Under the pieces are notes generated by a model. The model saw only the letters and a list, made by a program, of their open reading frames with translations. It did not search any database and was not told where the DNA came from. Source: Bacteroidales bacterium (GTDB lineage: Bacteria; Bacteroidota; Bacteroidia; Bacteroidales; VadinHA17). From it: DNA of 50,879 nucleotides. Below, one piece after another: positions 3,778-25,309 of this stretch. Within the stretch, counting starts at the first letter, position 1. Every line of letters begins with the position of its first letter. Location of the stretch: the NCBI GenBank assembly GCA_027028505.1, contig JALVJE010000249.1:1-50879 (forward strand). Reading direction: 5' to 3'. The position numbers and the translations under genes are program-made.

Positions 3778-3805
3778 TTCTGAATTCTGATTGCTGATTT
3801 CTGAA
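3778..3805. repeat. 7-bp-period array
   Basis: ttctgaa ttctgat tgctgat ttctgaa. Confidence 0.8.
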
Positions 3806-3853
3806 TAGAAGTATTCACGCAGAGGCCGCGGAGATTTGCGCAATGAACGCAAT

Positions 3854-3884
3854 CCTTCGATACGCCTTCGGCTACTCAGGAACC
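3854..3884 (-). repeat. 31-bp hairpin repeat, copy 1
   Basis: ccttcgatacgccttcggctactcaggaacc; three further copies at 21393, 21525 and 22322. Confidence 0.9.
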
Positions 3885-3936
3885 AGTGTTAAGGAGCGAT
3901 GAGAAATGAGCTGTGAGTTGATGATCATAGAATGAC

Positions 3937-4034
3937 GCGCCGCAGGCGCAAATTTCGCGAGCGCAGCGAGCTAATTTCTACTTAATTTCGTCCCGACGCA
4001 GTCGGGGCTAATTTCGGCAGCGAGGCAGCCTAAT
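3937..4034. repeat. Array of mini-hairpins separated by (T/A)AATTTC heptamers
   Basis: GCGCC-GCA-GGCGC / AAATTTC / GCGAGC-GCA-GCGAGC / TAATTTC / TAATTTC / CCCGAC-GCA-GTCGGG / TAATTTC / GGCAGC-GAG-GCAGCC. Confidence 0.85.
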
Positions 4035-4072
4035 AACTCCAGGCTCCACAATTCATAAAAGGGCGAGCGTTG

Positions 4073-5194
4073 CTATGATCTTAGTGCTGCGATCATCTTT
4101 TCTGCGACGCGGGCTGAGACGCCGGGGTCTCCCATGATCTCCTGCAGGTGGCGGTAGTCGTCGAGCATCTGCCGGCGGGCGGGGGTATCCTCCAGGATCC
4201 TGTCGAGTTCCTCCCGGATGCGGGGCAGATTCACATCATTCTGTATCAGTTCCTTCACGGCCTCTTTGCCGAGGATGAGGTTGACCAGGGAGATGTAGTC
4301 GACATGCACGAAATATTTCCCAATGTGGTAGGTAAGTTTGTTCATGCGGTACATGACCACCTGGGGCACTCCCATGAGGGCGGTCTCCAGGGTGGCGGTA
4401 CCTGAAGTAACCAGGGCCGCGTGGGCTGCATGCAGGAGGTTGTAAGTGTCGTTGAAGACCACCTTCACATCCGTATTTGCCAGATAAGGAGCATAATCCT
4501 CCTCGTTGAAAGTAGGGGCGCCGGCGATGATGAACTGGTATCCGGGGTATTTCTCCGTAAGTTGAAGCATCAAAGGCAGGTGGTATTGCAGCTCCTGTTT
4601 CCGGCTGCCGGGGAGGAGGGCGATGACAGGGCGGTCGGGGAGGTCCAGCTTTTTCAGGAAGCGTTCGCGGGGTACCACCTCCTTTTTTCGGCGGGCTACT
4701 TCGTCGACGATGGGATTGCCGAGAAACTCAGCTTCGATGCCGTGTTTCCGGTAGAACTCTTTCTCAAAGGGGAGGATGATGAACATCCTGTCGACAAAAG
4801 CCTTTATTTTCTTAACGCGTTTCTGTTTCCAGGCCCACAGTTTCGGGGAGATGTAATAAAAAACCCTGAATCCCTGCTGATGGGCGAACTCTGCCATTCG
4901 CAGGTTGAAGCCCGGGTAGTCGATGAGGATCACCACATCGGGCCGGAAAGAGCGGATGGCTTCGCGGCATTTTTTCATATTACGGGAGATGGCCCGCAGG
5001 TGGGTCAGCACTTCCACGTACCCCATGTAAGCCATCTCGCGGTAATGGATCACCAGTCCCGGCGCTACCGCCTGCATCCTGTCCCCCCCGAAATAGCGGA
5101 AAGAGGCCTGCGGGTCTTGTTCCTGCAGGGCTTTCATCAGGTTGCCGCCGTGGACGTCTCCCGATGCTTCGCCGGCGATGAGGAAGTACTTCAT
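4073..5194 (-). CDS. lpxB: Lipid-A-disaccharide synthase
   Basis: MKYFLIAGEASGDVHGGNLMKAL, FGGDRM, VVILIDYPGFNLRMA, LLPGSRKQEL, SGTATLETAL. Confidence 0.96.
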   Translation of the reverse strand: MKYFLIAGEASGDVHGGNLMKALQEQDPQASFRYFGGDRMQAVAPGLVIHYREMAYMGYVEVLTHLRAISRNMKKCREAIRSFRPDVVILIDYPGFNLRMAEFAHQQGFRVFYYISPKLWAWKQKRVKKIKAFVDRMFIILPFEKEFYRKHGIEAEFLGNPIVDEVARRKKEVVPRERFLKKLDLPDRPVIALLPGSRKQELQYHLPLMLQLTEKYPGYQFIIAGAPTFNEEDYAPYLANTDVKVVFNDTYNLLHAAHAALVTSGTATLETALMGVPQVVMYRMNKLTYHIGKYFVHVDYISLVNLILGKEAVKELIQNDVNLPRIREELDRILEDTPARRQMLDDYRHLQEIMGDPGVSARVAEKMIAALRS

Positions 5195-5195
5195 C

Positions 5196-5510
5196 TTACA
5201 GGATGAACTTCAGGGCCACGATCACCAGGGCGGTGACGAAGGTGGCATACAGCACTCCCTTAGCGGCAAAGTCCCGCTTGCTCCAGATAAAGATGAAGAA
5301 CAGGAGCAGGTTGGGCAGCACGGCCAGGCTGAGGAACTTGGTCAGCACATTGGCCTTGATAGCTGTGGTGATGAATTCTCCGAAGGTACGGTGAGAGGCC
5401 CAGATGTACCAGATCAGAAAGAAGGTGAGGGGCGGCAGGATCAGTCCTGTGACCCAGCCGGTGAGGGGCTCATCCGCTTTTTTTCTTGGTTTTTGTTCTT
5501 CCATGTTCAT
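5196..5510 (-). CDS. Small membrane protein between surE and lpxB
   Basis: 104 aa with about three hydrophobic segments; same strand and packed between surE and lpxB. Confidence 0.75.
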   Translation of the reverse strand: MNMEEQKPRKKADEPLTGWVTGLILPPLTFFLIWYIWASHRTFGEFITTAIKANVLTKFLSLAVLPNLLLFFIFIWSKRDFAAKGVLYATFVTALVIVALKFIL

Positions 5511-5516
5511 TATGTT

Positions 5517-6323
5517 TTACAGTTCGGACAGGTCCATGTTCAGGTCACGGAGATGTTCCATATCGTCATACCGGGTATGGTCGGCATCGACGGGCACCAC
5601 GGCGACGAAGCCTTGTTCGAGGGCCCACTCGTCGGTGCCGGCAACGCCCGGCTCCAGGTTGTGGTAGAAACCGCGCAGCAGGTAGCCTTTTTCTCCGTTT
5701 TCATCGAGGGTCTCCTCAAACTCTTCCGACCAGTAGCCTTTGGTCTGCCGGCACACCCGGATCCCTTTGATGGTCCCGTCATCGGGGACGGGTACGTTGA
5801 CGTTAAGGCACAGGCCGGGACGGTATCCATTGGCCAGCACCTGGCGGATGATGGTGTCACTGATGCGGGCCGCGGCAGAAAAATCGGCCTCCGGGTCATA
5901 GTTGAGCAGCGACAGACCTATGGACCGTATGCCGTTGACGGCTCCTTCGAGGGCGGCGCCCATGGTGCCCGAATAGATGAGGTTGACAGAAGCATTGGAG
6001 CCGTGGTTGATACCCGATACCACCAGGTCGGGGCGCCGGGGCAGCAGTCTGTTGATGGCCAGCTTGACACAGTCGACCGGCGTGCCGGTGACGGTATAAC
6101 AGTGATAATCTCCCTCTGAGAGATCCCTCCGGTAGTTTACCCGCACCGGCCGGGAGACGGTGATAGCGTGGGACATGCCGGAGTGGGGCTCGGCGGGGAC
6201 CACGGCGTAGACCGTGCCCAGCGGCCGCACCACCTCCAGGAGGGCCTTCAGCCCGTTGGCGCCGGCACCGTCATCGTTGGTGACCAGTATGAGGGGTTTG
6301 TCAGGCATAGTTTGCAGGGGCAA
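5517..6323 (-). CDS. surE: 5'/3'-nucleotidase SurE
   Basis: LILVTNDDGAGANGLKAL, SGMSHAITV, DLVVSGINHGSNASVNLIYSGTMGAALEG. Confidence 0.95.
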   Translation of the reverse strand: MPLQTMPDKPLILVTNDDGAGANGLKALLEVVRPLGTVYAVVPAEPHSGMSHAITVSRPVRVNYRRDLSEGDYHCYTVTGTPVDCVKLAINRLLPRRPDLVVSGINHGSNASVNLIYSGTMGAALEGAVNGIRSIGLSLLNYDPEADFSAAARISDTIIRQVLANGYRPGLCLNVNVPVPDDGTIKGIRVCRQTKGYWSEEFEETLDENGEKGYLLRGFYHNLEPGVAGTDEWALEQGFVAVVPVDADHTRYDDMEHLRDLNMDLSEL

Positions 6324-6347
6324 AGATAAGATTTTATAAGGTCAAAA

Positions 6348-6480
6348 AGTTGATAAGTGCCGCAAATCTAGATTTGCGAGCCCGTCCTAACGGATGTTCA
6401 TCCGGGCGGGCATCCTCGAATTTTCAACGGATCAAAGATCCGGAAAATTCGGGATTGATAAGTTGAAGAGTTGAAGAGTT
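6348..6480 (+). repeat. Double-hairpin modular element, copy A, carrying an internal ~30-bp hairpin insertion
   Basis: cgcaaatctagatttgcg (6361-6378) - inserted cccgtcctaacggatgttcatccgggcggg (6381-6410) - catcctcga - gaattttcaacggatcaaagatccggaaaattc (6418-6450) - gggattgataagttgaagagtt. Aligns to the reverse complement of 25487-25584. Confidence 0.9.
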
Positions 6481-6493
6481 GTAACTCGAACTA

Positions 6494-6535
6494 GAACCAC
6501 GAACCATGAACCATGAACTATGAACTATGAACTCT
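6494..6535. repeat. 7-bp-period array
   Basis: gaaccac gaaccat gaaccat gaactat gaactat gaactct, followed by an aactcca aactcca segment. Confidence 0.9.
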
Positions 6536-6659
6536 TTAACTCCAAACTCCAGGCACTCCACACTCCACACTTTATTAACGTATTTAGAAAATATGTACTT
6601 TTGTGCTTCGGAAAATATTTTGAGATACGGCGTGAGGCCGGTAATTTTAAGCTACAGAG

Positions 6660-9116
6660 ATGAAGATATCGTATAACTGGCTCCGGGAGTATATTCCGGT
6701 GGATATGAGCCCCGCAGAGGTATCCCGCATCCTGACCGGTACGGGTCTGGAGGTGGAAGGTATGGAAGAGGTGGAACAGGTGCCGGGCGGTCTGAAAGGG
6801 GTGGTGATAGGCAAGGTGCTGGAGTGTCACCGGCATCCCAATGCCGACCGGCTTTCGGTGACGAAGGTGGATATTGGCGGAGGAACGGTGTTGCCCATCG
6901 TCTGTGGGGCCCCCAATGTGGCGGAAGGGCAGAAAGTGCCGGTAGCCCTGGTGGGAACAACGCTTACGATGGGGGATAAGAAGATCACGCTGAAAAAAAC
7001 GAAGATACGCGGGGAGGTTTCGGAAGGGATGATCTGTGCCGAGGATGAACTGGGGCTGGGCGACTCGCACGAGGGGATCATGGTGCTGGACGAGGATGCT
7101 CCCGTAGGTCTGCCAGCAGCTGATTATTTCCATCTGGAGAGCGACACGGTCTTTGAGATCGGCCTCACTCCCAACCGCATCGACGGGGCTTCCCACCTGG
7201 GCGTGGCACGCGACCTGGCGGCTTTCCTCAATCAGGAAGAGGACAAGGTGTCGGTGAAGTATCCCGATGTCTCCGCATTCACTGTGGACAACCACGATCT
7301 CCCCATGGAGATCATCATTGAGGAGAAAGAGGGATGTCGCCGGTACAGTGGCATCACGCTGAAAGATGTGAAAGTGGGACCTTCTCCCGAATGGTTGCAG
7401 CGTCATCTCAAAGCGGTGGGTCTGACGCCCATCAACAATGTGGTGGACGTGACCAACTTCGTCCTTTATGAGACGGGGCATCCCATGCATGCTTTTGATG
7501 CTGCTAAGATCAAAGGCAACAAGGTGATCATCCGCACCCTCCCGGAGGGGACCGTATTCCGCACTCTCGACGGGGAAGAACGCAAACTCAGCGCTGAGGA
7601 CCTGATGATCTGCAACGAGGAGGAGGGGATGTGCATTGCAGGGGTGTTCGGAGGCTATGATTCGGGTGTCACGGAAGAGACTACATCGGTGTTCCTGGAG
7701 AGCGCCTGGTTCAATCCCACCTGGATACGCAGGACGGCCCGGCGTCATCAGCTCAATACGGACGCTTCGTTCCATTTTGAGCGGGGCGCCGATCCCAATA
7801 TTACGATTTATGCTCTCAAAAGGGCTGCTATGCTGATCCGTGAGATCGCCGGCGGCACTGTCAGCTCGGAGATCCTGGATGTCTACCCAGACCCGATCCC
7901 TGATCTCCGGGTTACTCTCAGATACCGCCAGCTGGCCCGTCTCTCGGGCTTTGACATCCCGCACGAGCGGGTGAAGAAGATCCTGCAGAACCTGGACATC
8001 CGTATCCTCGGTGAGGATGAGGAGAAACTGGACCTGCAGGTGCCTGCTTACCGGGTGGATGTACAGCGTGAGGCGGATGTGATCGAGGAGGTGTTGCGGA
8101 TCTTTGGTTATGATAATATTCCCATACCTGGGGAGGTGCGTTCGGCGGTCACCTATTCGGAGAAGCCGGACAAGGAAAAAGTGGTGAACAATATCTCCGG
8201 CATGCTCACCTCACTGGGTTTTGCCGAGATCATGTCCAATTCGCTGACCCCTTCAGCCTATTACGAAGATCTGAAGGACTATCCTGCCGAAAAAACCGTA
8301 AAGCTGTTCAATCCGCTCAGCTCAGAACTGGACGGCATGCGGCAGACCCTTCTTTTTGGTGGGCTGGAAGCGATCCGGCGGAATGTAAATTATAAAAGGA
8401 ACAGACTGCGTCTGTACGAATTCGGCAATGTCTATTTCCGGGAACCGGGGAAAGAGGGTGCTTCTCCTTTGGATAAGTACGGGGAAGATGCACGCTTTGC
8501 CTTGTTCGTCTCGGGTCCGCAGGAGCCGGAATCGTGGCGGCGCAAGCCTGCCGAACCCGATTACTATGTGATCCGTTCGTATGTGGACCGTCTGCTGGAG
8601 AAGGCAGGTCTGCCGGAGAGCAGATTGCAAAAGCAGGAGCTCACGGAAAGTGATGTTTTTTCTGCGGGCATGAAGTACATGCTGGGAAAGGATGAGGTGG
8701 TCCGTTTCGGGGAGATACAGGGTGCTCTGCTGGATAAGTTCGAGGTAGAGCAGGGAGTCTTCTTTGCAGAGATACGTTTGGAGCCTTTGCTGAAGATACG
8801 GAAGAACCTCCGGGTGAAGTACCATGAGATGCCACGTTATCCGGCCGTGCGCAGGGACCTGGCCCTGCTGCTGGACAAGGAGGTCCGTTTCGAGGATATA
8901 CGCGCCCTGGCTTTCCGGACAGAAAAGAAACTGTTGCGGGAAGTGAATGTCTTTGATGTCTTTACGGATCCCCGGCTGGGGGAGAACAAGAAATCGTATG
9001 CCGTGAGTTTTGTGCTGCAGGATCCTGAGCGTACGCTCACCGACAAGCAGATCGATAAAGTGATGAAGAGGCTGATGCAGGCGTATGAGAAGGAGATGGA
9101 GGCGAAGATAAGGTAA
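6660..9116 (+). CDS. pheT: Phenylalanine--tRNA ligase beta subunit
   Basis: MKISYNWLREYIPVDMSP; tRNA-binding domain; GLTPNRIDGASHLGVARDLAAFL; B3/B4 and FDX-ACB regions; 818 aa. Confidence 0.97.
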   Translation: MKISYNWLREYIPVDMSPAEVSRILTGTGLEVEGMEEVEQVPGGLKGVVIGKVLECHRHPNADRLSVTKVDIGGGTVLPIVCGAPNVAEGQKVPVALVGTTLTMGDKKITLKKTKIRGEVSEGMICAEDELGLGDSHEGIMVLDEDAPVGLPAADYFHLESDTVFEIGLTPNRIDGASHLGVARDLAAFLNQEEDKVSVKYPDVSAFTVDNHDLPMEIIIEEKEGCRRYSGITLKDVKVGPSPEWLQRHLKAVGLTPINNVVDVTNFVLYETGHPMHAFDAAKIKGNKVIIRTLPEGTVFRTLDGEERKLSAEDLMICNEEEGMCIAGVFGGYDSGVTEETTSVFLESAWFNPTWIRRTARRHQLNTDASFHFERGADPNITIYALKRAAMLIREIAGGTVSSEILDVYPDPIPDLRVTLRYRQLARLSGFDIPHERVKKILQNLDIRILGEDEEKLDLQVPAYRVDVQREADVIEEVLRIFGYDNIPIPGEVRSAVTYSEKPDKEKVVNNISGMLTSLGFAEIMSNSLTPSAYYEDLKDYPAEKTVKLFNPLSSELDGMRQTLLFGGLEAIRRNVNYKRNRLRLYEFGNVYFREPGKEGASPLDKYGEDARFALFVSGPQEPESWRRKPAEPDYYVIRSYVDRLLEKAGLPESRLQKQELTESDVFSAGMKYMLGKDEVVRFGEIQGALLDKFEVEQGVFFAEIRLEPLLKIRKNLRVKYHEMPRYPAVRRDLALLLDKEVRFEDIRALAFRTEKKLLREVNVFDVFTDPRLGENKKSYAVSFVLQDPERTLTDKQIDKVMKRLMQAYEKEMEAKIR

Positions 9117-9149
9117 GCTTGAAGCTCGATGCTCGAAGCTTGAAGTAAA
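9115..9149. repeat. 7-bp-period array starting inside the pheT stop codon
   Basis: aagcttg aagctcg atgctcg aagcttg aagtaaa; TAA stop is 9114-9116. Confidence 0.9.
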
Positions 9150-9150
9150 G

Positions 9151-9206
9151 AACTGTGAACTGAGAACTGTGAACTGAGAACTGTGAACTGAGAACTTTGA
9201 ACTATG
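9151..9206. repeat. 7-bp-period array of eight units; the last unit contains the ATG of the next gene
   Basis: aactgtg aactgag x3, then aactttg aactatg; ATG at 9204-9206. Confidence 0.97.
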
Positions 9207-9719
9207 AACCGCATTGATCTGATACAGGGAGACATCACAAAGCTGGAGGTGGATGCCATAGTGAACGCTGCCAACAGCAGTCTGCTGGGGGGTGGCGGTG
9301 TGGACGGGGCCATCCACCGGGCTGCCGGGCCACAGCTGCTGGAGGAGTGCCGTACCCTGAACGGGTGTCCTACGGGGGATGCGAAGATCACCAAAGGATA
9401 CCGTTTACCGGCGAAGTATGTTATTCATGCTGTGGGTCCGCGTTACCGGGATGGCAAGCATGGTGAGGCGGAGCTGCTGGCCTCGGCCTATCGCCGTTCG
9501 CTGGAGGTGGCGCTGGAGAACGGGGTGAAGAGCATTGCTTTTCCCAATATAAGTACCGGCATCTACGGCTATCCCAAAGAGGAGGCGGCGGAGATTGCCA
9601 TCCGCGAGGTAAAAGACTTCCTGGCAAAGCATCCGGAGATCGAAAAAGTAATTTTTGTTACCTTTGACAGGGATAATTACAGGATCTACCAGGAGAAACT
9701 GAAGGAGGAGGATGCGTAG
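9204..9719 (+). CDS. Macrodomain protein (O-acetyl-ADP-ribose deacetylase-like, YmdB family)
   Basis: [62 protein letters not shown]. Confidence 0.95.
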
Positions 9720-9746
9720 CGGACAGGATACCGGAACAGAGATTGT

Positions 9747-10679
9747 ATGACGGGATATAAAAAATACCGGAACGGCAGGCTGACAGGCACTGACAAGGTT
9801 ACCCTGGCATATATTATTTTTACCGCTTTGTTGCTTATAGCCGGCGCCGGAAGGCTGGAAGATGCCGGTTCGCATTTCCTGATGCGGGCACTCATGATCG
9901 TTTTCATGGGTGTGGTCGTTTATCTGGAGCAGGAATATGAGGCCCGTTGGCCGAAGACCCTGCATGCGCTCTATCCCCTGTTATTTCTGGTCTATTTTTT
10001 TCCGGAGACCGATTATCTGAATGATCTTTTCATGGATGCCCTGGATCCGGCCGTCATCCGGCTGGAGATCTCGGTATTCGGTTTTATGCCCAGTGTGGCT
10101 TTCAGTGCCTGTTGTCCCCAGCCATGGATCAGCGAGATCATGCATGCGGGTTATTTCTCTTTTTATTTCATCATCCTCTTTTTTACGCTTTACTATTTTC
10201 TGAAAAGACCGGAGTTGTTCCAGGAGAGGATGTTCCAGTTTTTTCTTGCATTTTACATTTTCTACATCATATTTGATCTTTTCCCCTCCGAAGGCCCGCA
10301 GTATTTCCTGGCTGCTTCGCTCCCTGAGGTACCACGGGGTTATCTGATCACACGTTTGATGAACGGTATCCTGGAGGTCGGTGATCGTCCCACGGGGGCT
10401 TTCCCCAGTTCGCATATCGGTATGACCTGGCTGATCATGTACTTTTTCTTCCGGGACCGTCGCAGGCTTTTTTATTACTGGCTGGTGCCGGCCCTTATCC
10501 TTACTCTTTCCACCGTATACATCCGGGCTCACTATGCAGTGGATGTGCTGGGAGGGTTCCTGATGGTTCCTGTGCTGGTCTGGGCCGGACAGAAGGCGTG
10601 GCAACGGCTTCGCAGGCTGGAGGTCGTGGCCGGGGAGGATAGCGTCCCCGAGTCTCCGGTGGTTCCTCCTCTCGGATAA
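9747..10679 (+). CDS. PAP2-superfamily membrane phosphatase
   Basis: Multi-pass protein with GAFPSSHIGMTWL and RAHYAVDVLGGF motifs. Confidence 0.85.
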   Translation: MTGYKKYRNGRLTGTDKVTLAYIIFTALLLIAGAGRLEDAGSHFLMRALMIVFMGVVVYLEQEYEARWPKTLHALYPLLFLVYFFPETDYLNDLFMDALDPAVIRLEISVFGFMPSVAFSACCPQPWISEIMHAGYFSFYFIILFFTLYYFLKRPELFQERMFQFFLAFYIFYIIFDLFPSEGPQYFLAASLPEVPRGYLITRLMNGILEVGDRPTGAFPSSHIGMTWLIMYFFFRDRRRLFYYWLVPALILTLSTVYIRAHYAVDVLGGFLMVPVLVWAGQKAWQRLRRLEVVAGEDSVPESPVVPPLG

Positions 10680-10724
10680 AATTATTTTTTTACTTTTACG
10701 GTTGCTGTTATTAAAACTCCGATC

Positions 10725-11846: not shown

Positions 11847-11865
11847 GAAAGAAGTTTGGAGTCCC

Positions 11866-11949
11866 GCAACTCTCAGGATCTTCGATCCTTTAGAGTTGCG
11901 AGGATCCTCGAAAAACAACGCAAATCAAAGATTTGCTGTTTTTCGGGAT
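11866..11949 (+). repeat. Double-hairpin modular element, copy C
   Basis: gcaactctcaggatcttcgatcctttagagttgc (11866-11899) - gaggatcctcg - gaaaaacaacgcaaatcaaagatttgctgtttttc (11910-11944) - gggat. Confidence 0.85.
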
Positions 11950-11955
11950 GCCTAG

Positions 11956-12011
11956 AGTTTGGAGTTGTGAGTTGCGGGTATCGGGTTTGAGGTTTGAGGT
12001 TTGAGGTTTGA
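11956..12011. repeat. 7-bp-period array of eight units
   Basis: agtttgg agttgtg agttgcg ggtatcg ggtttga ggtttga ggtttga ggtttga. Confidence 0.92.
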
Positions 12012-12070
12012 TGCAGCCAGAACGGCTGCGTTTGGAGACGCAATGAATTGCGTCTGTACGATGTATGTTT

Positions 12071-12105
12071 CAGGTTCCAGGTTTCAGGTTCCAGGTTTCA
12101 GGTTC
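12071..12105. repeat. 7-bp-period array of five units
   Basis: caggttc caggttt caggttc caggttt caggttc. Confidence 0.93.
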
Positions 12106-12120
12106 AGTTTTATTGACTTA

Positions 12121-13947: not shown

Positions 13948-14189
13948 GATCTTTCTCGCGTGTTTTCGTCCCTGAGAATAAAAAAATCGTAAATTTGTAA
14001 CTGATACCTTAACCTGTTTATTGTCTTTCTGGTATGATCCTGAACATTTTATCATATCTTGCCCTCTCCAGGTTCCGGAACGTCAAAAATAGGGACAGCT
14101 TTACTCTTTTCAAATAATACGGTCTCTTTTTTTGATCCGTATTCACATTTTCCTTTATAATTATCGTGTTTTAATCATAAAACGTTAAT

Positions 14190-14207: not shown

Positions 14208-14220
14208 TAGACTGAAAGAT

Positions 14221-15618
14221 ATGGAACTACATTATTTTGAGCCGTTCAAGACCAAGATGACGGAGCCCATCCGGCTAAGCACGCGTGAGGAGCGGGAAGA
14301 ATGGATCCGTCATGCCCATTACAATATGTTCAATCTCCGGAGCGATCAGGTGATGATCGACCTGCTGACCGATTCGGGGACGGGAGCGATGAGCCATCAT
14401 CAGTGGGCTGCTTTGATGGAGGGAGATGAGAGTTATGCGGGGGCTTCCTCCTATGAACATCTGAAGGAGACCATCCGGGAGATCACAGGTTTTGAATATT
14501 TTCTGCCCACGCATCAGGGACGGGCCGCAGAGAACGTCCTGTTCACGGTGCTGGTGAAAGCAGGGGATATCGTCCCGGGCAACAGTCATTTCGATACCAC
14601 CAAAGGTCACATCGAATACCGGAAGGCTACGGCTGTAGACTGCAGTGTGGGAGCGGCTTTTGATATTACGAACGAATATCCTTTCAAAGGGAATGTGGAT
14701 CCGGAAAAGCTGGAGGACATTTTCAGAAGCCATCCCGTTGAAAAGATCCCCCTGGTGATCATGACCCTCACCTGTAACACCACCGGCGGGCAGCCTGTGA
14801 GCATGAAGAACCTGCGGGAAGTATCTGAGCTGGTGCATCGTTACGGGTCGCTCCTGTTCATCGACGGAGCCCGTTTTGCAGAGAATGCCTGGTTCATCCA
14901 TACGCGTGAGGAAGGGTATGGTGACAAGGGCGTCCGGGAGATCGTCCGGGAGATGTTCAGCTATGCTGACGGCATGACCATGAGCAGCAAGAAGGACGGT
15001 CTGGTGAACATTGGAGGTTTCATCGGTTTCAGGGAGGAGGAACTGTTCCGCCGGGCTACCACCTTCAATATCATGTTCGAGGGGTTCATTACCTATGGCG
15101 GCATGGCAGGACGGGATATGAACGCCCTGGCACAGGGGCTGAAGGAGTCTACTACCGAAGAATATCTCTCTTACCGCATCCGGCAGATCGCTTTCCTGGG
15201 TGAGCGCATTGCTTCGTATGGTATACATGTGATCAGGCCTTTCGGTGGTCATGCCGTATTTGTGGATGCCCTGGGTTTCCTGCCTCACATCCCGCGCGAG
15301 GAGTTCCCGGCACAGACCCTTTCTGTTGAGCTTTATATCGAAGCAGGTGTGCGGACGGCAGAGATCGGTGCGCTAATGGCCGACCGCGATCCGGTGACGC
15401 GGGAAAACCGTTACCCTGCCCTGGAGATGATCCGTCTGGCAGTGCCGCGCCGGGTGTACAGCGACAATCACATGCAGGCGGTAGCCGACGGGCTGGGAAG
15501 GGTCTGGGCCCGAAGGAAAGAGATCAAAAAGGGAATGCGTATCGTTGAGGAAGCGCCTATTTTGAGGCATTTTACGGTGAAACTGGAAAGGAGTGAGTTC
15601 ACAGTTCACAGTTCATAG
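14221..15618 (+). CDS. tnaA: Tryptophanase / beta-eliminating lyase (PLP enzyme)
   Basis: FEPFKTKMTEPIRLSTREEREEWIRHAHYNMFNLRSDQVMIDLLTDSGTGAMSHHQWAALMEGDESYAG; MTMSSKKDGLVNIGG PLP-lysine region. Tyrosine phenol-lyase not fully excluded. Confidence 0.88.
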   Translation: MELHYFEPFKTKMTEPIRLSTREEREEWIRHAHYNMFNLRSDQVMIDLLTDSGTGAMSHHQWAALMEGDESYAGASSYEHLKETIREITGFEYFLPTHQGRAAENVLFTVLVKAGDIVPGNSHFDTTKGHIEYRKATAVDCSVGAAFDITNEYPFKGNVDPEKLEDIFRSHPVEKIPLVIMTLTCNTTGGQPVSMKNLREVSELVHRYGSLLFIDGARFAENAWFIHTREEGYGDKGVREIVREMFSYADGMTMSSKKDGLVNIGGFIGFREEELFRRATTFNIMFEGFITYGGMAGRDMNALAQGLKESTTEEYLSYRIRQIAFLGERIASYGIHVIRPFGGHAVFVDALGFLPHIPREEFPAQTLSVELYIEAGVRTAEIGALMADRDPVTRENRYPALEMIRLAVPRRVYSDNHMQAVADGLGRVWARRKEIKKGMRIVEEAPILRHFTVKLERSEFTVHSS

Positions 15619-15637
15619 TTCAAAGTTCATAGTTGAG
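15596..15637. repeat. 7-bp-period array containing the tnaA stop codon
   Basis: agttcac agttcac agttcat agttcaa agttcat agttgag; TAG stop 15616-15618. Confidence 0.95.
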
Positions 15638-15702
15638 TTAAGAAGGGTTTAGGGTGAAGGGAGAAAAAGATTAACTTTGCCTTCGGTCAAAAAAATGCAG
15701 GT

Positions 15703-16434: not shown

Positions 16435-16435
16435 G

Positions 16436-18187: not shown

Positions 18188-19173
18188 TGAAGAAAAGCCT
18201 GATCCTTGCGGGTTCCTTCGTGGCAGCCTTGCTGCTTGTTGCCGGGGTACTAATGGTCCGGCAACAGAAAGCTCAGCCCGGCGGGCAGTTCCGGGTGAAA
18301 GATACGGAGCGGATACGCCGGATCGTGTTCGTTCGTGATACCACACGTCTGGAACTGCGGAAGAAAGACGGGGTCTGGTGGGCCAATGACGCATGGAAAG
18401 CAAGGCCGCGTGCCATGAAGGTCCTCCTGAAGGTGCTGGGGGAAACGGAGGTCAGGTCTCCTTTATCAGGGGAGCTGCCGCAGCGTGTGCAAGAGGATAC
18501 AGCCAGCATACATACGGAGGTGGCGGTGTATGGCAGGCTCCTGCCTAAAAAGCGATTTGAGGTGTATCTGAACAAAAAGATCCCGGGAGGCAACATGATG
18601 CGGCTGCACGGGAAAAAGAAATGGTACATCACAGAGCTCCCCGGAGAGGATGTCAATCCGGCTGCGCTCTTTGTCACCGATCCTTATTACTGGAGGGACC
18701 TGCGTCTTTTTCATTTCCGGCCCGGCGAGGTGACCGGCGTGGAGATAAGGTATGGAAAGAACGAGGGGTTTCGGGCCGGGATCGATACGGTCACGGGGCG
18801 GGTGACCTTTGTTCCTTTTGACCCTTCACTGGCCGGTATGCCGGTGGACAGTGGTAAGGTGAGAAGGTTCCTGACCTATTTTCAGGATCTCTCGGCAGAT
18901 GTCTGGGAGCATCTCCCGGAAAGAGAAGCGGACAGCATTCTGAAAGAAAATTCGCTGTATGAGATCCGTATCGATGCGGCCGGAGGGAAAGAGTTCAGGA
19001 TGCTGGTTTTTCCGGTGCTGAAAAAGGACAGTATCACCGGAGCCGGAGAGGTAGATCCGGATGTGGCCAGGGCCTGGGTGGATCCGCCGGGAGAAATGGT
19101 GTTGATCAAATATTACAGGATAGATCCTTTCCTGCTCAAAGCGAAAGAGTTTGTTTTGAGGGGGAGGGAGTAA
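18184..19173 (+). CDS. DUF4340-like protein downstream of gldG
   Basis: N-terminal membrane anchor; 4-bp overlap with gldG; DTERIRRIVFVRDTTRLELRKKDGVWWAND pattern. Confidence 0.6.
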   Translation: MMKKSLILAGSFVAALLLVAGVLMVRQQKAQPGGQFRVKDTERIRRIVFVRDTTRLELRKKDGVWWANDAWKARPRAMKVLLKVLGETEVRSPLSGELPQRVQEDTASIHTEVAVYGRLLPKKRFEVYLNKKIPGGNMMRLHGKKKWYITELPGEDVNPAALFVTDPYYWRDLRLFHFRPGEVTGVEIRYGKNEGFRAGIDTVTGRVTFVPFDPSLAGMPVDSGKVRRFLTYFQDLSADVWEHLPEREADSILKENSLYEIRIDAAGGKEFRMLVFPVLKKDSITGAGEVDPDVARAWVDPPGEMVLIKYYRIDPFLLKAKEFVLRGRE

Positions 19174-19330
19174 TTTGGAGATCTGGAAAAATAAATATTT
19201 TTTAGGGGGAAAGGAGTGGCAAATTGTTACTTTCCGGGGGAAAACAAAAATTGGCACAGTGACATTTTTTTTGTATTATTGATACCGTAATTTTTCCGCA
19301 AAAAACCATAACGAAAAAAGTGATAAACCG

Positions 19331-20467
19331 ATGAGATTTGTAGTTTCAAGTCATGAATTGCTTCAACATCTTCAGTCTGTCAGCCGGGTGATCAGCTCGA
19401 AGAATTCCCTTCCCATTCTGGACGATTATCTTTTCAAGTTGGAGGACAATGTGCTGACGATCACCGCCTCGGATCTGGAGACGACCCTGATCACGCAGAT
19501 GAAGATAGAGAATGCCGATGAGGACGGCAGCATTGCGTTGCCTGCGCTGCGTCTGACCAATACCCTGAAAGAATTTCCCGAGGAGCCGCTCACGTTTGAG
19601 ATCAATCTGGAGACGCTGGCCGTGGAGATCCTGGCCGAGCAGGGGAAATACAGTATTGTGGGGCAGCGGGCCGTGGAGTATCCGCAGGTGCCTTCGCTCA
19701 AGGAGGAGACCAAAACCGTTCTGAACATGGATCCGGGGGTGTTGTACAATGGTATCACGCGCACAATTTTTGCTACGGCCAACGACGATCTGCGGCCCAT
19801 CATGAACGGGATCTTTTTTGACATCGAAGAAGACAAGGTCACACTCGTGGCCAGTGATGCTCACAAGCTGGTGCGTTATATACGGAAAGGTCTGAGTGTG
19901 GAGAAGCCGGGATCGTTCATCCTGCCCAAGAAACCGGCCTCCCTGTTGAAGAACATTCTGCCCAAAGAGGAGGACGATGTGCTCGTTGAGTTTGATGATA
20001 AGAATGCCCGTTTTGTGCTGAGTGACCATACGCTGGTATGCCGCCTGGTGGAAGGAAGCTATCCCAGTTACAATTCGGTCATCCCCCAGGACAATCCCAA
20101 TAAGATGCATGTGGACAGGATGGCCATGATCAATGCGCTGCGGAGGGTATCGGTCTTTTCCAGTCAGGCGAGCAACCTGGTACGGCTCTCCCTCACGGCC
20201 AACCAGCTGACTCTTTCCGCCCAGGACATCGACTTCTCGGTATCGGCCAGCGAATGGCTCAAGTGCCAGTATGACGGGGATGAGATGGAGATGGGCTTCA
20301 AGTCAACCTTCCTGCTGGAGATCCTCAATAATCTGCCGGGCGATGAGGTGGTCTTTGAACTGGCTGATCCTACGCGTGCCGGGATCATTCTGCCGTCCGA
20401 GCAGGAGTCAGAGGATGACGACCTGCTGATGTTGCTGATGCCGATGATGATCGGCGGACCCAGTTGA
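19331..20467 (+). CDS. dnaN: DNA polymerase III subunit beta
   Basis: MRFVVSSHELLQHLQSVSRVISSKNSLPILDDYLFKLEDNVLTITASDLETTL; three-domain clamp; C-terminal LLMLLMPMMI. Confidence 0.97.
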   Translation: MRFVVSSHELLQHLQSVSRVISSKNSLPILDDYLFKLEDNVLTITASDLETTLITQMKIENADEDGSIALPALRLTNTLKEFPEEPLTFEINLETLAVEILAEQGKYSIVGQRAVEYPQVPSLKEETKTVLNMDPGVLYNGITRTIFATANDDLRPIMNGIFFDIEEDKVTLVASDAHKLVRYIRKGLSVEKPGSFILPKKPASLLKNILPKEEDDVLVEFDDKNARFVLSDHTLVCRLVEGSYPSYNSVIPQDNPNKMHVDRMAMINALRRVSVFSSQASNLVRLSLTANQLTLSAQDIDFSVSASEWLKCQYDGDEMEMGFKSTFLLEILNNLPGDEVVFELADPTRAGIILPSEQESEDDDLLMLLMPMMIGGPS

Positions 20468-20545
20468 TCTTCACTTATTTAAACGATCTTTTACACGTTG
20501 CCTTCGGCATGATGCTGCCGTGAGGAGAGATAATTATTCTTTAAA

Positions 20546-21313
20546 ATGGAACTCAACCTGAAGAAACCCATTGCTTTTTTCGACCTGGAGACGACGGGCC
20601 TCGACATCAGCAAAGACCGTATCGTGGAGATCGCTGTGCTAAAGGTATTGCCGGATGGTAAAGAAGAGAGGTTTTACTCGCTGGTCAATCCGGAGATGCC
20701 GATCGATCCGCGTGCCATGGCGGTGCATGGCATCACCCAGGAAAAGGTGGCAAATGCGCCCACTTTTTCGCAGATCGCCAGGAGGCTGGCCGATTTCATT
20801 GCCGGGTGCGATCTGGCAGGATATAACTGCAACCGTTTCGATGTGCCGATGCTGGCCGAGGAGTTCGCCCGGTGCAATGTGGAGATCGACCTGAAGAACC
20901 GCAAGATCATCGATGTGCAGGTGGTTTTCTTCAAGAAAGAGCAACGGACCCTGTCCGCTGCCTATAAGTTTTATCTGGACCGGGAGATGCAGGATGCCCA
21001 TACGGCAGAGGCCGATACCGACGCGACTTACCAGATCCTGAAAGCCCAGCTGGACCGGTATGATGATCTTAAAAATGATGTGGCCTACCTGTCGGAGTTC
21101 ACGTCGCAGACGAAGAATGTCGATTTCCTGGGGAGGATCGTGTACAATGAAAAGAATGAGGAGGTCTTTAATTTCGGGAAATATAAGGGGCAGAAGGTGG
21201 CCGATGTACTGAAGAAGGATCCTGCCTATTATGACTGGATGATGAAGGGGGATTTTCCGAGGTATACGAAGAAGGTACTGACACAGATCAGGTTGAGGGA
21301 GTTTGGGAGGTGA
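20546..21313 (+). CDS. DnaQ-like 3'-5' exonuclease
   Basis: PIAFFDLETTGLDISKDRIVEIAVLKV; YNCNRFDVPMLAEEF; C-terminal FNFGKYKGQKVADVLKKDPAYYDWM. Confidence 0.92.
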   Translation: MELNLKKPIAFFDLETTGLDISKDRIVEIAVLKVLPDGKEERFYSLVNPEMPIDPRAMAVHGITQEKVANAPTFSQIARRLADFIAGCDLAGYNCNRFDVPMLAEEFARCNVEIDLKNRKIIDVQVVFFKKEQRTLSAAYKFYLDREMQDAHTAEADTDATYQILKAQLDRYDDLKNDVAYLSEFTSQTKNVDFLGRIVYNEKNEEVFNFGKYKGQKVADVLKKDPAYYDWMMKGDFPRYTKKVLTQIRLREFGR

Positions 21314-21322
21314 GAAGGGGAA

Positions 21323-21375
21323 AGTAATAAGGCAAAAGGCAGAAGTAATAAGGCAAAAGGCAGAAGTAAAAAGGC
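21323..21375. repeat. 7-bp-period array with 21-bp higher-order repeat
   Basis: agtaata aggcaaa aggcaga | agtaata aggcaaa aggcaga | agtaaaa aggc. Confidence 0.95.
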
Positions 21376-21392
21376 ATCCGACTTCGTCCCGC

Positions 21393-21423
21393 CCTTCGGT
21401 ACGCCTGCGGCTACTCAGGGACC
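21393..21423 (-). repeat. 31-bp hairpin repeat, copy 2
   Basis: ccttcggtacgcctgcggctactcagggacc. Confidence 0.9.
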
Positions 21424-21453
21424 AGGGACTTCGGCGGACGAGGAAAAGGAAGG

Positions 21454-21485
21454 AATATTGGAATAATGGAATGATGGAAGAGTGG
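21454..21485. repeat. 8-bp-period degenerate array
   Basis: aatattgg aataatgg aatgatgg aagagtgg. Confidence 0.75.
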
Positions 21486-21493
21486 GGAAAGTC

Positions 21494-21521
21494 AGCTATG
21501 AGCAGTGAGCTATGAGAGATG
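21494..21521. repeat. 7-bp-period array
   Basis: agctatg agcagtg agctatg agagatg. Confidence 0.85.
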
Positions 21522-21524
21522 AGT

Positions 21525-21555
21525 CCTTTGGTACGCCTGTGGCTACTCAGGAACC
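21525..21555 (-). repeat. 31-bp hairpin repeat, copy 3
   Basis: cctttggtacgcctgtggctactcaggaacc. Confidence 0.9.
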
Positions 21556-21566
21556 GGCCTTGAGAA

Positions 21567-21610
21567 GCCCCGAAGGGGCGGAAGCTACCAGGATCGGGCG
21601 CAGCCCGATC
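21567..21610. repeat. Two perfect triloop mini-hairpins
   Basis: GCCCC-GAA-GGGGC (21567-21579) and GATCGGGC-GCA-GCCCGATC (21592-21610). Confidence 0.9.
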
Positions 21611-21632
21611 ATCATTTTAAAATACAGTAATT

Positions 21633-22238
21633 ATGAAGATCATTTGTATCGGGAGGAATTATGCGGAGCATGCGAAAGAGCTGAACAATGCCGTGCCGGA
21701 GAAGCCGGTCTTTTTTATGAAGCCGGATACGGCCCTGTTGACGGACAACAAACCTTTCTATCTTCCGGACTTCTCGCAGGAGGTTCATTATGAGACGGAG
21801 CTGGTACTGCGCATCTCAAAGATGGGGAAGCATGTTGAAAAAGGCTTTGCCCGGCGCTATTATGATGAGATCGGTATCGGCATTGACTTTACGGCCCGTG
21901 ACCTGCAGCGGGAGTGCAAACAAAAAGGCCTGCCGTGGGAGATCGCCAAGGCTTTTGACAACTCAGCGCCTCTGGGCGGGTTCCTGCCCAAAAAGGAACT
22001 GCCCGATCCCATCCTGTTCCATCTGAATATCAACGGAGAGACAGTCCAGGAGGGGACTACGGAGGACCTTCTTTTTTCTTTCGATGAGCTGATCGCCTAT
22101 GTGTCACGCTTCATCACCCTGCGTACCGGCGACCTGATCTATACCGGCACACCGGCAGGGGTAGGGTCGGTGAAGAAAGGTGACCGGTTGCAGGCTTATA
22201 TCGGGGAGAAGCTCCTGCTGGATTTTGAGGTGAAGTAG
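21633..22238 (+). CDS. Fumarylacetoacetate hydrolase family protein
   Basis: MKIICIGRNYAEHAKELNN, VHYETELVLRISK, IGIDFTARDLQ, GDLIYTGTPAGVG. Confidence 0.95.
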   Translation: MKIICIGRNYAEHAKELNNAVPEKPVFFMKPDTALLTDNKPFYLPDFSQEVHYETELVLRISKMGKHVEKGFARRYYDEIGIGIDFTARDLQRECKQKGLPWEIAKAFDNSAPLGGFLPKKELPDPILFHLNINGETVQEGTTEDLLFSFDELIAYVSRFITLRTGDLIYTGTPAGVGSVKKGDRLQAYIGEKLLLDFEVK

Positions 22239-22265
22239 AGAATGTGTACTGGGTTCAGGGTACTG

Positions 22266-22295
22266 CCCGCCCGGACGAATGTCCGTTCGGACGGG
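22266..22295 (-). repeat. 30-bp hairpin module, second copy of the insertion in the 6.4-kb element (inverted)
   Basis: Reverse complement cccgtccgaacggacattcgtccgggcggg vs 6381-6410 cccgtcctaacggatgttcatccgggcggg: 26/30 identical. Confidence 0.9.
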
Positions 22296-22321
22296 GTTGC
22301 TGGGTGCTCCACCTTCGCCGT

Positions 22322-22353
22322 CCTTCGGTACGCCTGACGGCTACTCAGGAACC
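22322..22353 (-). repeat. 31/32-bp hairpin repeat, copy 4
   Basis: ccttcggtacgcctgacggctactcaggaacc. Confidence 0.9.
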
Positions 22354-22393
22354 GGCTTCGGTGGACAAAGTGGTTGCTGGGGGGAAAGCGTGA

Positions 22394-22435
22394 AGCACAG
22401 AGCGTAGAGCACAGAGCACAGGGCACAGGGCTCAG
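22394..22435. repeat. 7-bp-period array of six units
   Basis: agcacag agcgtag agcacag agcacag ggcacag ggctcag. Confidence 0.92.
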
Positions 22436-22458
22436 TGGGTCTGGTACCGGATCGCAGA

Positions 22459-22490
22459 TCGCTTCATCTCATCATCGCATCATCTCTTCC
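22459..22490. repeat. 8-bp-period array, inverted relative of 3729-3760
   Basis: tcgcttca tctcatca tcgcatca tctcttcc. Confidence 0.7.
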
Positions 22491-22507
22491 TGCCTGCGGC
22501 AGGCAGG
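22489..22507. repeat. Perfect 19-nt hairpin
   Basis: CCTGCCTGC-G-GCAGGCAGG. Confidence 0.9.
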
Positions 22508-22576
22508 CATCGTTTCATCCTTGGGGCCTGGGGGGGGTAAGAGGGGTACTGGATGCGTCAAAATCCAGTTGGCATA

Positions 22577-23005
22577 TCACTGATCTTTAATATTCATCAG
22601 CATCTCCACGATCCTTTGGGGAGGACGGATGGGTCTGAAGGTCTTTCCGTCGGTAAAGATCAGTTCCGTGGTGGCGGTGGCCACCTGTTTCCCCTCTTCG
22701 TTGGTCAGGTCGTAGGAGAAGAGGATCCTGGGACCGCGGATCTCCTCCATCGTCACTTTCACGGAGATAATGTCATCGTAATAGGCTGGGTAGAGGAACG
22801 TGATGTTGATATTCCTCACAGGAAAGATGATCCCGCTGTCCTCAAGCTGCTTATAGGTTATTTCGGAGCGGCGCATCAGGTCGGTGCGTGCCTCCTCCAG
22901 ATAAAGGGGATATACACTGTGATGCAGCACTCCCATCCTGTCGGTCTCACCGTAGCGGACCCGTATGCGGGAGATGTGTGTGGGTTTCTTCTGATCGTTG
23001 GCCAT
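22577..23005 (-). CDS. Acyl-CoA thioesterase (4HBT/YbgC-like)
   Basis: HISRIRVRYGETDRMGVLHHSVYPLYLEEARTDLMR hot-dog fold signature. Confidence 0.9.
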   Translation of the reverse strand: MANDQKKPTHISRIRVRYGETDRMGVLHHSVYPLYLEEARTDLMRRSEITYKQLEDSGIIFPVRNINITFLYPAYYDDIISVKVTMEEIRGPRILFSYDLTNEEGKQVATATTELIFTDGKTFRPIRPPQRIVEMLMNIKDQ

Positions 23006-23075
23006 GGTCCTGCCTGGTTTGTTTTGCCGGCTAAGTTAAGCGGAAGGCTTTTGTTTTCCAAATGGGGTGTCGGGA

Positions 23076-24536
23076 TCAGACTTTCACGCCGGCTCCTTTT
23101 CTGCGGATCAGGAACAGTCCCGCGAAGGTGATCAGTCCGTTGAGGATGAGCATCTCAAAGCCGAACTTATACCCGTCAAACCAGGCTGTGGAGTTGATGT
23201 TCAGTATGTAGCAGATGACCGGCGAGAGGATGGCGACCACCGGCACCCACTTGTCTTTTACCTGCCAGCGGGTGAAGAGCCCGAAAGCGTACAGGCCGAG
23301 GAGCGGACCGTAAGTATATCCGGCAGCGGTGAAGAGGGAGCTGATCACGCTCTCGTTGTTGATGGCCCGGAACAGGAGTATCAGGAGCACCATCACCCCG
23401 GAGATGAGGATGTGGACCCGCATGCGGGTTTTTTTGATCGTTTCCTCGCTTTTCCCTTTGGTGCCCAGGATATCCACGGTGAAGGAGGTGGTCAGAGCGG
23501 TCAGGGCGGAATCGGCACTGGAGTATGCTGCCGCAATGAGTCCCAGCATGAAGAAAACGGAGACGACCGCCGGCAGGTAACCGCCGGTGGCGATCACCGG
23601 GAAGAGCTCGTCGGCACGGGCCGGCAGGGGGATGCTATTGTGGGCGGCAAAGATGAAGAGTAGGGCCCCCAGCAAGAGAAAGAGCAGGTTGACAGGCACC
23701 AGGATGATGCTGAACCAGTACATGTTCTTTTTTGCCTCCCCGATGTTCTTGCAGCTCAGGTTCTTCTGCATCATGTCCTGGTCGAGGCCGGTCATGACGA
23801 TGGTGATAAAAGCGCCGCTGAGGAACTGTTTCAGGAAAAAACGCTTGTCGTGCCAGTCGTCGAAGAAAAAAATGCGGGAGTAGTTGCTGGCACGTATCTC
23901 CCGGACCATCCCGCCGAAGTCGAGTCCCATCTGTTTGGAGACGAAGATGACCGTGAGGATCACGGAGAGGAGCATGAAAGTGGTCTGGAGGGTATCGGTC
24001 CAGATGATCGTCTTGATCCCTCCCCGGAAGGTGTAAAGCCAGATCAGGAGGATGGTGATGATGACCGTGACCCAGAAAGGTATGTGCCAGCTCTGGAAGA
24101 TGGTGATCTGCAGTACGGTGGCCATCAGGAAGAGCCTGAATGAGGCTCCGATGATGCGGGAGAGCAGGAAAAAGGAGGCGCCGGTCTTGTAGGAACGGTG
24201 CCCGAAACGGGTCTCCAGGTAGGTGTATATAGAGGTGAGGTTGAGCCGGTAATAAAGGGGCATCAGCACTTCGGCGATGAAAAGGTATCCCAGCAGGTAC
24301 CCCAGGACCATCTGCATGTATGCGAACTGGCTCTCACCCACCCAACCCGGCACACTGATGAAGGTGACCCCTGAGAGAGAGGCGCCAATCATGCCGAAAG
24401 CCACCACGTACCAGGGGGATCTGCGGTTGCCCAGGAAAAAGCCTTTGTTGCCCGCATTGCGCCCCGTGATCAGGGAGATGGCCAGCATGAGGAGAAAGTA
24501 AGAGACAATGATCAGAGCCAGAAAAACAGGTTGCAT
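23076..24536 (-). CDS. Sodium:solute symporter family protein
   Basis: MQPVFLALIIVSYFLLMLAISLITGRNAGNKGFFLGNRRSPWYVVAFGMIGASLSGVTFISVPG; many TM segments. Start chosen at MQPVF. Confidence 0.92.
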   Translation of the reverse strand: MQPVFLALIIVSYFLLMLAISLITGRNAGNKGFFLGNRRSPWYVVAFGMIGASLSGVTFISVPGWVGESQFAYMQMVLGYLLGYLFIAEVLMPLYYRLNLTSIYTYLETRFGHRSYKTGASFFLLSRIIGASFRLFLMATVLQITIFQSWHIPFWVTVIITILLIWLYTFRGGIKTIIWTDTLQTTFMLLSVILTVIFVSKQMGLDFGGMVREIRASNYSRIFFFDDWHDKRFFLKQFLSGAFITIVMTGLDQDMMQKNLSCKNIGEAKKNMYWFSIILVPVNLLFLLLGALLFIFAAHNSIPLPARADELFPVIATGGYLPAVVSVFFMLGLIAAAYSSADSALTALTTSFTVDILGTKGKSEETIKKTRMRVHILISGVMVLLILLFRAINNESVISSLFTAAGYTYGPLLGLYAFGLFTRWQVKDKWVPVVAILSPVICYILNINSTAWFDGYKFGFEMLILNGLITFAGLFLIRRKGAGVKV

Positions 24537-24656
24537 GCTGTTCTTTTTTGAAGGACGAAATATATGGAAAATTACGGGGAAATTGCAATTCCGGTTTTCC
24601 CGCAGTAAATTTGACGGGAAATCTATCCCGGCGGACGGGATGGAAAAAAACAAGAG

Positions 24657-25283
24657 ATGGAAATATCCAGGTATCCTTCGAAATTACTGGAAGAGGCGGT
24701 GGAGGTCTTTGCCGGGCTGCCGGGCATAGGCCGAAAGACGGCCCTGCGGCTGGTGCTGTTCCTGTTGCGTCAGGACAAGGAAGTGATCGGGCGTTTCGGG
24801 GAGACCATCCTGCGCCTGAAGGATGAGATCCGTTATTGTCGCAGTTGCAACAATATCTCGGATAAAGAGATCTGTGATATCTGTGCTAATCCTGCACGGG
24901 ACCACTCTGTCGTGTGTGTGGTAGAGAACCCGCAGGATGTAATGGCCATTGAGAATACCGGCCAGTACCATGGCATCTATCATGTGCTGGGGGGACTGAT
25001 CTCTCCTGTCGACGGCATCGGGCCGGATGACCTTGTGACAGCTCCCCTGGAAGAGAAGATACGGAAAGGGGAGGTGAAGGAGCTGATCCTGGCCCTGAAC
25101 ACCACCATGGAGGGGGATACCACCAACTTTTACCTTTTCCGCAAGTTCAGGGATACGCCGGTGAAGATCACCACCCTGGCACGGGGGGTGGCCATCGGCG
25201 GCGAGCTGGAATATGCCGACGAGATCACCCTGGGGCGCTCCATTGCCAACCGGACGTTGTTCGAGGAGACGTTTAAGTTATAA
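24657..25283 (+). CDS. recR: Recombination mediator RecR
   Basis: [17 protein letters not shown]; zinc motif [16 protein letters not shown]; Toprim [29 protein letters not shown]. Confidence 0.96.
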
Positions 25284-25309
25284 GCTCGAAGCTTGAAGCT
25301 CGATGCTTG
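25282..25309. repeat. 7-bp-period array starting inside the recR stop codon
   Basis: aagctcg aagcttg aagctcg atgcttg; TAA stop 25281-25283. Same unit family as 9115-9142. Confidence 0.92.

Follow-up and report, generated by a model that had tools for sequence, protein, structure and literature searches.

Period-7 tandem arrays are scattered through the intergenic sequence of a Bacteroidales bacterium of the VadinHA17 lineage. They are probably heptameric simple-sequence repeats that are made by slippage in 7-nucleotide (nt) steps escaping mismatch repair, whose units are dispersed among loci and which are tolerated in the 3′ flanks of genes. The window analyzed here is the whole of a 50,879-nt contig (JALVJE010000249.1, positions 1 to 50,879; C249) of the draft genome GCA_027028505.1 (G000), which comprises 3.38 Mb in 275 contigs. 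Species of the same genus (G001–G006, where G001 is a sister species with 93% identity) were used for comparison.

Period and unit vocabulary of the arrays

Genome-wide counts were made in a 620-kb sample of the window's own genome, for which some contigs were picked for GAACTG repeats and others were not. Tandem Repeats Finder (TRF) gave 61 period-7 arrays in 354 kb of the picked contigs and 40 in 216 kb of the others. Since these densities are similar, the density is not inflated by the selection. A lag scan of the sample found 137–138 period-7 arrays, or about one per 4.5 kb, and 0 in block-shuffled control sequence. Arrays with other periods are rarer: period 8 has 43–49, period 9 has 30, period 12 has 23, period 6 has 5 and period 5 has 1 at most. 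The spectrum shows a sharp lower edge at period 7 and a fall-off at longer periods. Exact lag-7 runs in intergenic sequence number 177, compared with 5.4 expected. Tandem 7-nt units significantly exceed chance, which places the arrays in the heptameric class of long simple-sequence repeats (LSSRs). A first-pass annotation of the window had named a period histogram, compared with shuffled sequence, as a test of its observations, and the excess at period 7 is indeed present.

That annotation listed eleven arrays with a strict 7-nt period. TRF recovered period-7 rows for every one of them, although the one listed at 11956 becomes regular only at 11984. The rows are as follows, in window coordinates and with no strand assigned.

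3774–3806: period 7, unit TGAATTC (ttctgaa), downstream of the sulfatase gene 2182–3717 (Pfam Sulfatase)
6488–6533: period 7, GAACCAT/GAACTAT
6539–6571: period 7, ACTCCAC, with 14% indels, absent from the first-pass list
9115–9145: period 7, AAGCTCG/AAGCTTG, beginning at the stop of the PheT-like gene
9150–9209: period 7, GAACTGT/GAACTGA, with a 14-mer higher-order unit
11984–12011: period 7, GGTTTGA, 4 exact copies, preceded by degenerate heptads from ~11956
12067–12105: period 7, GTTCCAG/GTTTCAG, with a 14-mer higher-order unit
15596–15634: period 7, AGTTCAC, the reverse complement of the GAACTGT class
21322–21376: 21-mer higher-order array of the three heptads AAGTAAT, AAGGCAA and AAGGCAG (period-7 row 21329–21376)
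21494–21516: period 7, AGCTATG/AGCAGTG
22394–22435: period 7, AGCACAG/AGGGCAC, with related arrays in congeners
25282–25312: period 7, AAGCTCG/AAGCTTG, beginning at the stop of the RecR gene 24657–25283 (Pfam RecR)

Given the twelfth row (6539–6571, with its indels) and the period-8 rows in the same gaps, the description of the period as strict was overstated. Period 7 is dominant, but other periods occur genome-wide.

When heptamers are merged across rotation and strand, the 131 intergenic arrays of the sample fall into 68 unit classes, where ~120 would be expected. An exact class partner exists elsewhere for 90 of the 131, compared with ~20 by chance. The most frequent class is GAACTGT/GAACTGA, with 11 arrays; AAGCTCG/AAGCTTG has four and unites the window arrays at 9115 and 25282. 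The arrays at 15596 and 9150 are also linked, since agttcac is the reverse complement of gtgaact, itself a rotation of aactgtg. Neighboring unit families can blend within one register, as in GGAAGCTCGAAGCTTGAAACTAAAAACTATGAACTGTGAACCG (L065). The earlier impression that the units are largely unrelated holds only partly, as it overlooked rotation and strand and, with them, the sharing of classes. GG/CC content of the unit consensuses is 0.63 of background.

Adjacent units are exactly identical at a rate of 0.24, and those 2–6 units apart at 0.16 dropping to 0.09. In the genome sample, the flanks of same-class arrays are largely unrelated, and we therefore rejected the idea that the arrays are parts of larger dispersed elements. 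Long unit strings common to two loci were also rejected as proof of copying, because they reach only about twice the permuted-order level, and one such pair is a single array divided between two 20-kb stretches. Single-linkage clustering of units was dropped because random heptamers link too.

Other Bacteroidales have the same period with different vocabularies, such as TTTTCAA (L037), GGAGTTA (L044) and AGATAAT (L054). GAACYRT repeats occur 463 times in the window's own genome and in 12 of 392 other Bacteroidales genomes, with at most 34 per genome; the reversed pattern, used as a control, occurs in about as many of the other genomes or in more. The proposal that the period rather than the sequence is conserved therefore holds between genomes, which have separate vocabularies, but only partly within this genome, where classes are shared.

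Some observations were made outside the genus. In L044, from a metagenome-assembled genome (MAG) of Paludibacteraceae, period-8 arrays of the ACTAAACG type outnumber period-7 arrays, so the favored step differs from 7 in some lineages. In L037 (5201–6153), heptad arrays adjoin their own reverse complement (TTGAAAA beside TTTTCAA) and could form large hairpins, unlike those in the window's genome. Three IMG/VR contigs, L236 (6119–6232 and 8277–8331), L233 and L237, carry GAACTGT heptad arrays and are mostly of differing base composition. On L236 there are, in addition, a long GAACAGG array and open reading frames (ORFs) that resemble phage structural genes by eye, which suggests that heptads occur in phages as well.

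Placement relative to genes

The arrays were originally described as intergenic, and in the genome sample 131 of 137 (96%) are. However, two arrays in the window depart from this description. The array at 15596–15634 overlaps the C-terminal end and stop of ORF 14221–15618, which encodes a beta-eliminating lyase, and the array at 9150–9209 contains, within its final units, the ATG of the Macro-domain gene 9204–9719. For about 14 of 61 arrays, the start falls within the upstream reading frame or at its end. The lyase frame enters array sequence both in the window's own genome and in G002 (L109, 3195–3226), and the arrays appear to rewrite its last residues and stop codon. Heptads occur downstream of this gene in three species, with differing units and orientation.

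Based on hexamer-based gene calls, in which some error is expected, arrays are enriched in convergent gaps (42 of 119, or 35%, compared with 21% of intergenic bases; p=0.0005) and depleted in divergent gaps, which contain promoters (16 of 119, or 13%, compared with 29%; p=0.0001). In tandem gaps, 31% of arrays start at most 10 bp from the upstream stop, compared with 11% for random placement. There is no corresponding excess at downstream starts, where 15% lie within 10 bp, compared with 12% at random. The arrays of the genome sample show no strand preference.

These data bear on two possible functions. The arrays might be regulatory sites acting at the transcriptional or post-transcriptional level, with repeated protein-binding sites, a role suggested earlier for the TAACTGA repeats of Beggiatoaceae. 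Some arrays do adjoin a start codon, including the one at 9150–9209, and most of the repeats in one species studied by MacGregor (2015; PMC4679880) are directly upstream of starts. However, the arrays gather past stops rather than before starts, are depleted between divergent genes, use both strands about equally and comprise 68 unit classes. Moreover, congeners usually have no array at the orthologous position. This role is therefore improbable, and RNA binding or start-codon regulation was rejected on placement and strand.

Their enrichment past stop codons and between convergent genes would fit transcription terminators or 3′-end insulators between convergent or tandem genes. However, the arrays exhibit no unusual RNA structure (median fold z 0), and no Rfam family reaches its gathering threshold in the window. 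Similar arrays within one gap are inverted in only 1 of 7 pairs, and the same gene ends are array-free in most congeners. We consider this function quite improbable. The arrays most likely have no sequence-specific function.

Turnover of intergenic filler between species

Arrays of period 7 share gaps with period-8 arrays and dispersed hairpin modules. In self-BLAST, ~15 kb of the 65 kb of intergenic DNA has dispersed copies that are not arrays. The relevant features in the window (no strand assigned) are the following.

3708–3762: period-8 array, unit GATGAAGC, spanning the sulfatase gene stop (TRF)
3814–4038: dispersed hairpin modules, with GGCTACTCAGGAACC at 3870–3884 (self-BLAST)
6346–6453: dispersed palindromic element with nested hairpins (sequence and self-BLAST)
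6461–6481: period-8 array, AGTTGAAG, adjoining the palindromic element 6346–6453 (TRF)
11847–12120: 274-bp array-bearing gap, with an unrelated 391-bp filler in G001, where the flanking genes are ~93% identical
21314–21632: 319-bp filler of heptad and octad arrays and hairpin modules, between DnaQ-like exonuclease and FAA-hydrolase genes (Pfam)
21379–21449: dispersed hairpin module CCTTCGGTACGCCTGCGGCTACTCAGGGACC (sequence and self-BLAST)
21452–21479: period-8 array, GGAATAAT (TRF)
21524–21585: dispersed hairpin module, with GGCTACTCAGGAACC at 21541–21555 (self-BLAST)
22264–22370: dispersed hairpin modules, with GGCTACTCAGGAACC at 22339–22353 (self-BLAST)
22458–22484: additional period-8 row (TRF)
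25505–25584: dispersed palindromic element, inverted relative to 6346–6453 (sequence and self-BLAST)

The unit GATGAAGC represents the most frequent period-8 class in the genome sample. The hairpin family containing GGCTACTCAGGAACC frequently forms tandems at 33 bp. It numbers 97 copies in the window's own genome, 78 in G001 and 0 in the five others (G002–G006). This distribution indicates a lineage-specific filler vocabulary that is inherited over short distances. Separately, the end of the palindromic element, AAGTTGATAAGTTGAAGAG, merges with a period-8 array, which gives the impression that arrays may grow from the ends of such elements.

The first-pass annotation had suggested that orthologous positions in close relatives could reveal the arrays as chance low-complexity sequence. 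Instead, they point to derived insertions. The 319-bp gap at 21314–21632 measures 9–15 bp in five congeners with the same gene order, the 274-bp gap at 11847–12120 measures 12–64 bp in four congeners, and the gap with the 9150–9209 array measures 19–65 bp in congeners. Promoter gaps without arrays hold their length (e.g., 120 bp compared with 111–148 bp), and 58 array-free orthologous gaps have quartile differences of no more than ~10 bp. At two junctions, namely window positions 11847–12120 and L069/L070, the genes are conserved but the filler between them has been replaced relative to G001. Heptads resembling the 21322–21376 array are present at different loci in G001.

Differences within arrays tend toward whole units, although this copy-number change rests on a small sample. 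Arrays on L059 and L084 each differ from G001 by 21 nt (3×7), and the two members of a paralogous pair on L070 differ by 28 nt. Beside the L059 array, a 30-nt hairpin is present in one species and absent in the other. MAFFT places the L059 difference in one 21-nt gap, whereas BLAST with cheap gaps breaks it into smaller pieces. One of the two 21-nt differences is the sole indel of at least 3 nt in 2.8 kb, and in the 27.5 kb alignable to G001 there are only three such indels (4, 9 and 30 nt) outside arrays.

The genome is a 275-contig draft, which might raise the suspicion of an assembly artefact, or else of chance low-complexity sequence. Nevertheless, shuffled sequence contains practically no arrays, contig ends are not enriched in them (2 of 33, where 6% is expected), and the same unit families occur in the separately assembled sister G001. 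We rejected this explanation, which is extremely improbable, as these data already contradict it.

Whole-gap differences raise another alternative, in which blocks of arrays and hairpins are mobile cassettes that a transposase inserts or exchanges, in the style of REP/RAYT or miniature inverted-repeat elements (MITEs), and slippage varies them later. The 319-bp filler is consistent with this idea, as it is matched by only 9–15 bp in all five congeners, and so is the fact that the 93%-identical sisters differ in whole gaps and in the 30-nt hairpin beside an array. The restriction of the GGCTACTCAGGAACC family to these two species is also in line with it. However, Y1 transposases (Y1_Tnp) do not follow array density; we found none in array-rich G003 and six in array-poor G004. 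In addition, same-class arrays seldom share flanks, inspection of the 21314–21632 junction by eye revealed no target-site duplication, and unit strings common to loci only modestly exceed permuted order. Thus, cassettes are an unlikely explanation.

Other features of the window were noted as well. An 86-bp intergenic repeat, GGGGTAGGTTTCCCCCCTATGAATAGGGGGGACACAGGGGGGTGG, is present in two similar copies, at 1360–1445 and 1859–1944, on either side of a 121-amino-acid ORF (1481–1846) that resembles a DUF559-type endonuclease by eye, and the whole is possibly a mobile endonuclease cassette. A palindromic 12-bp tandem repeat, CTACGTAGTTAG, is located at 2082–2115, upstream of the sulfatase gene. 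The PheT-like gene (phenylalanyl-tRNA synthetase beta-like, 6660–9116) has its relatives in Bacteroidales MAGs, with best protein identities of 74–76%.

Proposed mechanism and known heptameric repeats

We propose that slippage in replication or repair creates and renews the arrays. Short duplications would appear at many spacings of at least 7 nt, of which the 7-nt step would expand most readily. Mismatch repair may remove short loops, which could explain why periods 5 and 6 are almost missing; the MutS protein of E. coli handles loops of up to ~4 nt. Units would then mutate, be re-homogenized locally and gain or lose copies in multiples of 7, as is shown by a few sister-species cases. Units might spread between loci when arrays recombine or templates are switched ectopically, which would give the genome its shared but broad vocabulary. 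Arrays would survive where they are least harmful, that is, just past stop codons and between convergent genes. Together with 8-nt arrays and 30–33-bp hairpin modules, they would make up a filler that evolves fast enough to be replaced outright from one sister species to the other. The suggestion of a shared generating or spacing mechanism is thus upheld for a generating process that acts on the period, given the edge at 7, the 21- and 28-nt differences and the other vocabularies in Bacteroidales. A selected spacing function has no support.

Several points weigh against slippage as a sufficient account. It leaves unexplained the sharing of classes between loci (90 of 131 arrays), and it fails for the replacement of whole gaps at 93% identity and for the growth of a gap from 9–15 to 319 bp. 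A second process is therefore required. When arrays are masked, two-copy duplications favor 7 no more than 8, 9, 11 or 14, so the preference must lie in expansion. The gain in length is not uniform over the 11 orthologous array-bearing gaps, of which two (L064 8691–8855, and the median for window 22239–22576) are probably inflated by intervening genes. Finally, density across the seven genomes of the genus spans 25-fold, from 22 arrays per 100 kb in the window's own genome through 17 in G001 and 11 in G003 to 7, 4, 1 and 0.8 in the rest. This variation has no correlate among MutS1, Ku, DinB, reverse transcriptase and Y1 transposase.

The corresponding candidate causes were rejected. Loss of mismatch repair does not apply, because MutS1 is intact in all seven congeners. 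End joining was rejected because Ku was found in none, and DinB loss because it exhibits no pattern with array density. Templating by a reverse transcriptase was rejected because there is no PF00078 match in array-rich G000, G001 and G003, in drafts that are 85–92% complete. REP transposase is present, yet uncorrelated with density. A further idea is that a so far undescribed process of this lineage builds and swaps whole fillers, copying heptad arrays, octad arrays and 30–33-bp hairpins among gene ends and replacing them as blocks within the divergence seen at 93% identity, with the 7-nt step set by the copying enzyme and not by sequence. We regard this idea as doubtful.

The genus is a natural experiment, with its 25-fold density range, differing vocabularies with a constant step and sister-species copy changes in multiples of 7. 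This variation makes both the slippage idea and the mismatch-repair lower edge directly testable. In the literature, we found no test of why 7 nt is the favored step, a preference noted since 2007. The arrays could also be used as fast strain markers, and they call for caution in reading gene-adjacent repeats as regulatory sites.

Cyanobacterial short tandemly repeated repetitive (STRR) sequences are intergenic tandem heptamers with several unit families per genome and few consensus units. Our arrays resemble them in being intergenic and in having multiple unit families in one genome, but comprise 68 classes in 131 arrays, the commonest with 11. STRR heptamers of heterocystous cyanobacteria (Calothrix), as cited in PMC4692102, were earlier taken as the nearest parallel. 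However, two other systems, the TAACTGA (PMC4679880) and Xanthomonas GGGAATC (PMC4692102) repeats, are equally close.

TAACTGA repeats occur in Beggiatoaceae, cyanobacteria and Bacteroidetes with a patchy phylogeny, and indels between close Cyanothece strains are mostly in 7-nt steps (PMC4679880). Both sets are intergenic heptamer direct repeats with a patchy phylogeny that includes Bacteroidetes, and both have 7-nt indels. The best-studied genome, however, favors one sequence, in forward orientation and upstream of starts, whereas here many sequences lie past stops on both strands. The commonest class here is TGAACTG, not TAACTGA, with many further classes.

The GGGAATC and GGGGA(C/T)T heptamers of Xanthomonas and Nostoc are intergenic, use both strands and lie on average 28 nt from the upstream ORF but 160 nt from the downstream ORF. 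Their length varies between related species, at largely the same gene junctions in two species (PMC4692102). Our arrays are likewise intergenic, on both strands, 3′-proximal to the upstream ORF and variable in length. The known heptamers are one G-rich family capable of forming G-quadruplexes, whereas units here have mixed composition and are poor in GG/CC, and the arrays are mostly at different junctions in congeners.

More generally, Mrazek et al. (2007), as cited in PMC4679880 and PMC4692102, found that 7 nt is the commonest LSSR class in bacteria and proposed a polymerase-linked slippage step for this preference. Bacterial heptanucleotide LSSRs share with our arrays the excess of 7-nt tandem repeats, the mainly intergenic location and the whole-unit copy variation between relatives. 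They differ in that here ~68 classes occur in 131 arrays, period-8 arrays and hairpin modules are intermixed, and turnover is seen between sisters. Heptameric repeats are therefore already known; what is less usual here is the broad vocabulary within one genome, the interspersion of hairpins and the turnover that sister species reveal.

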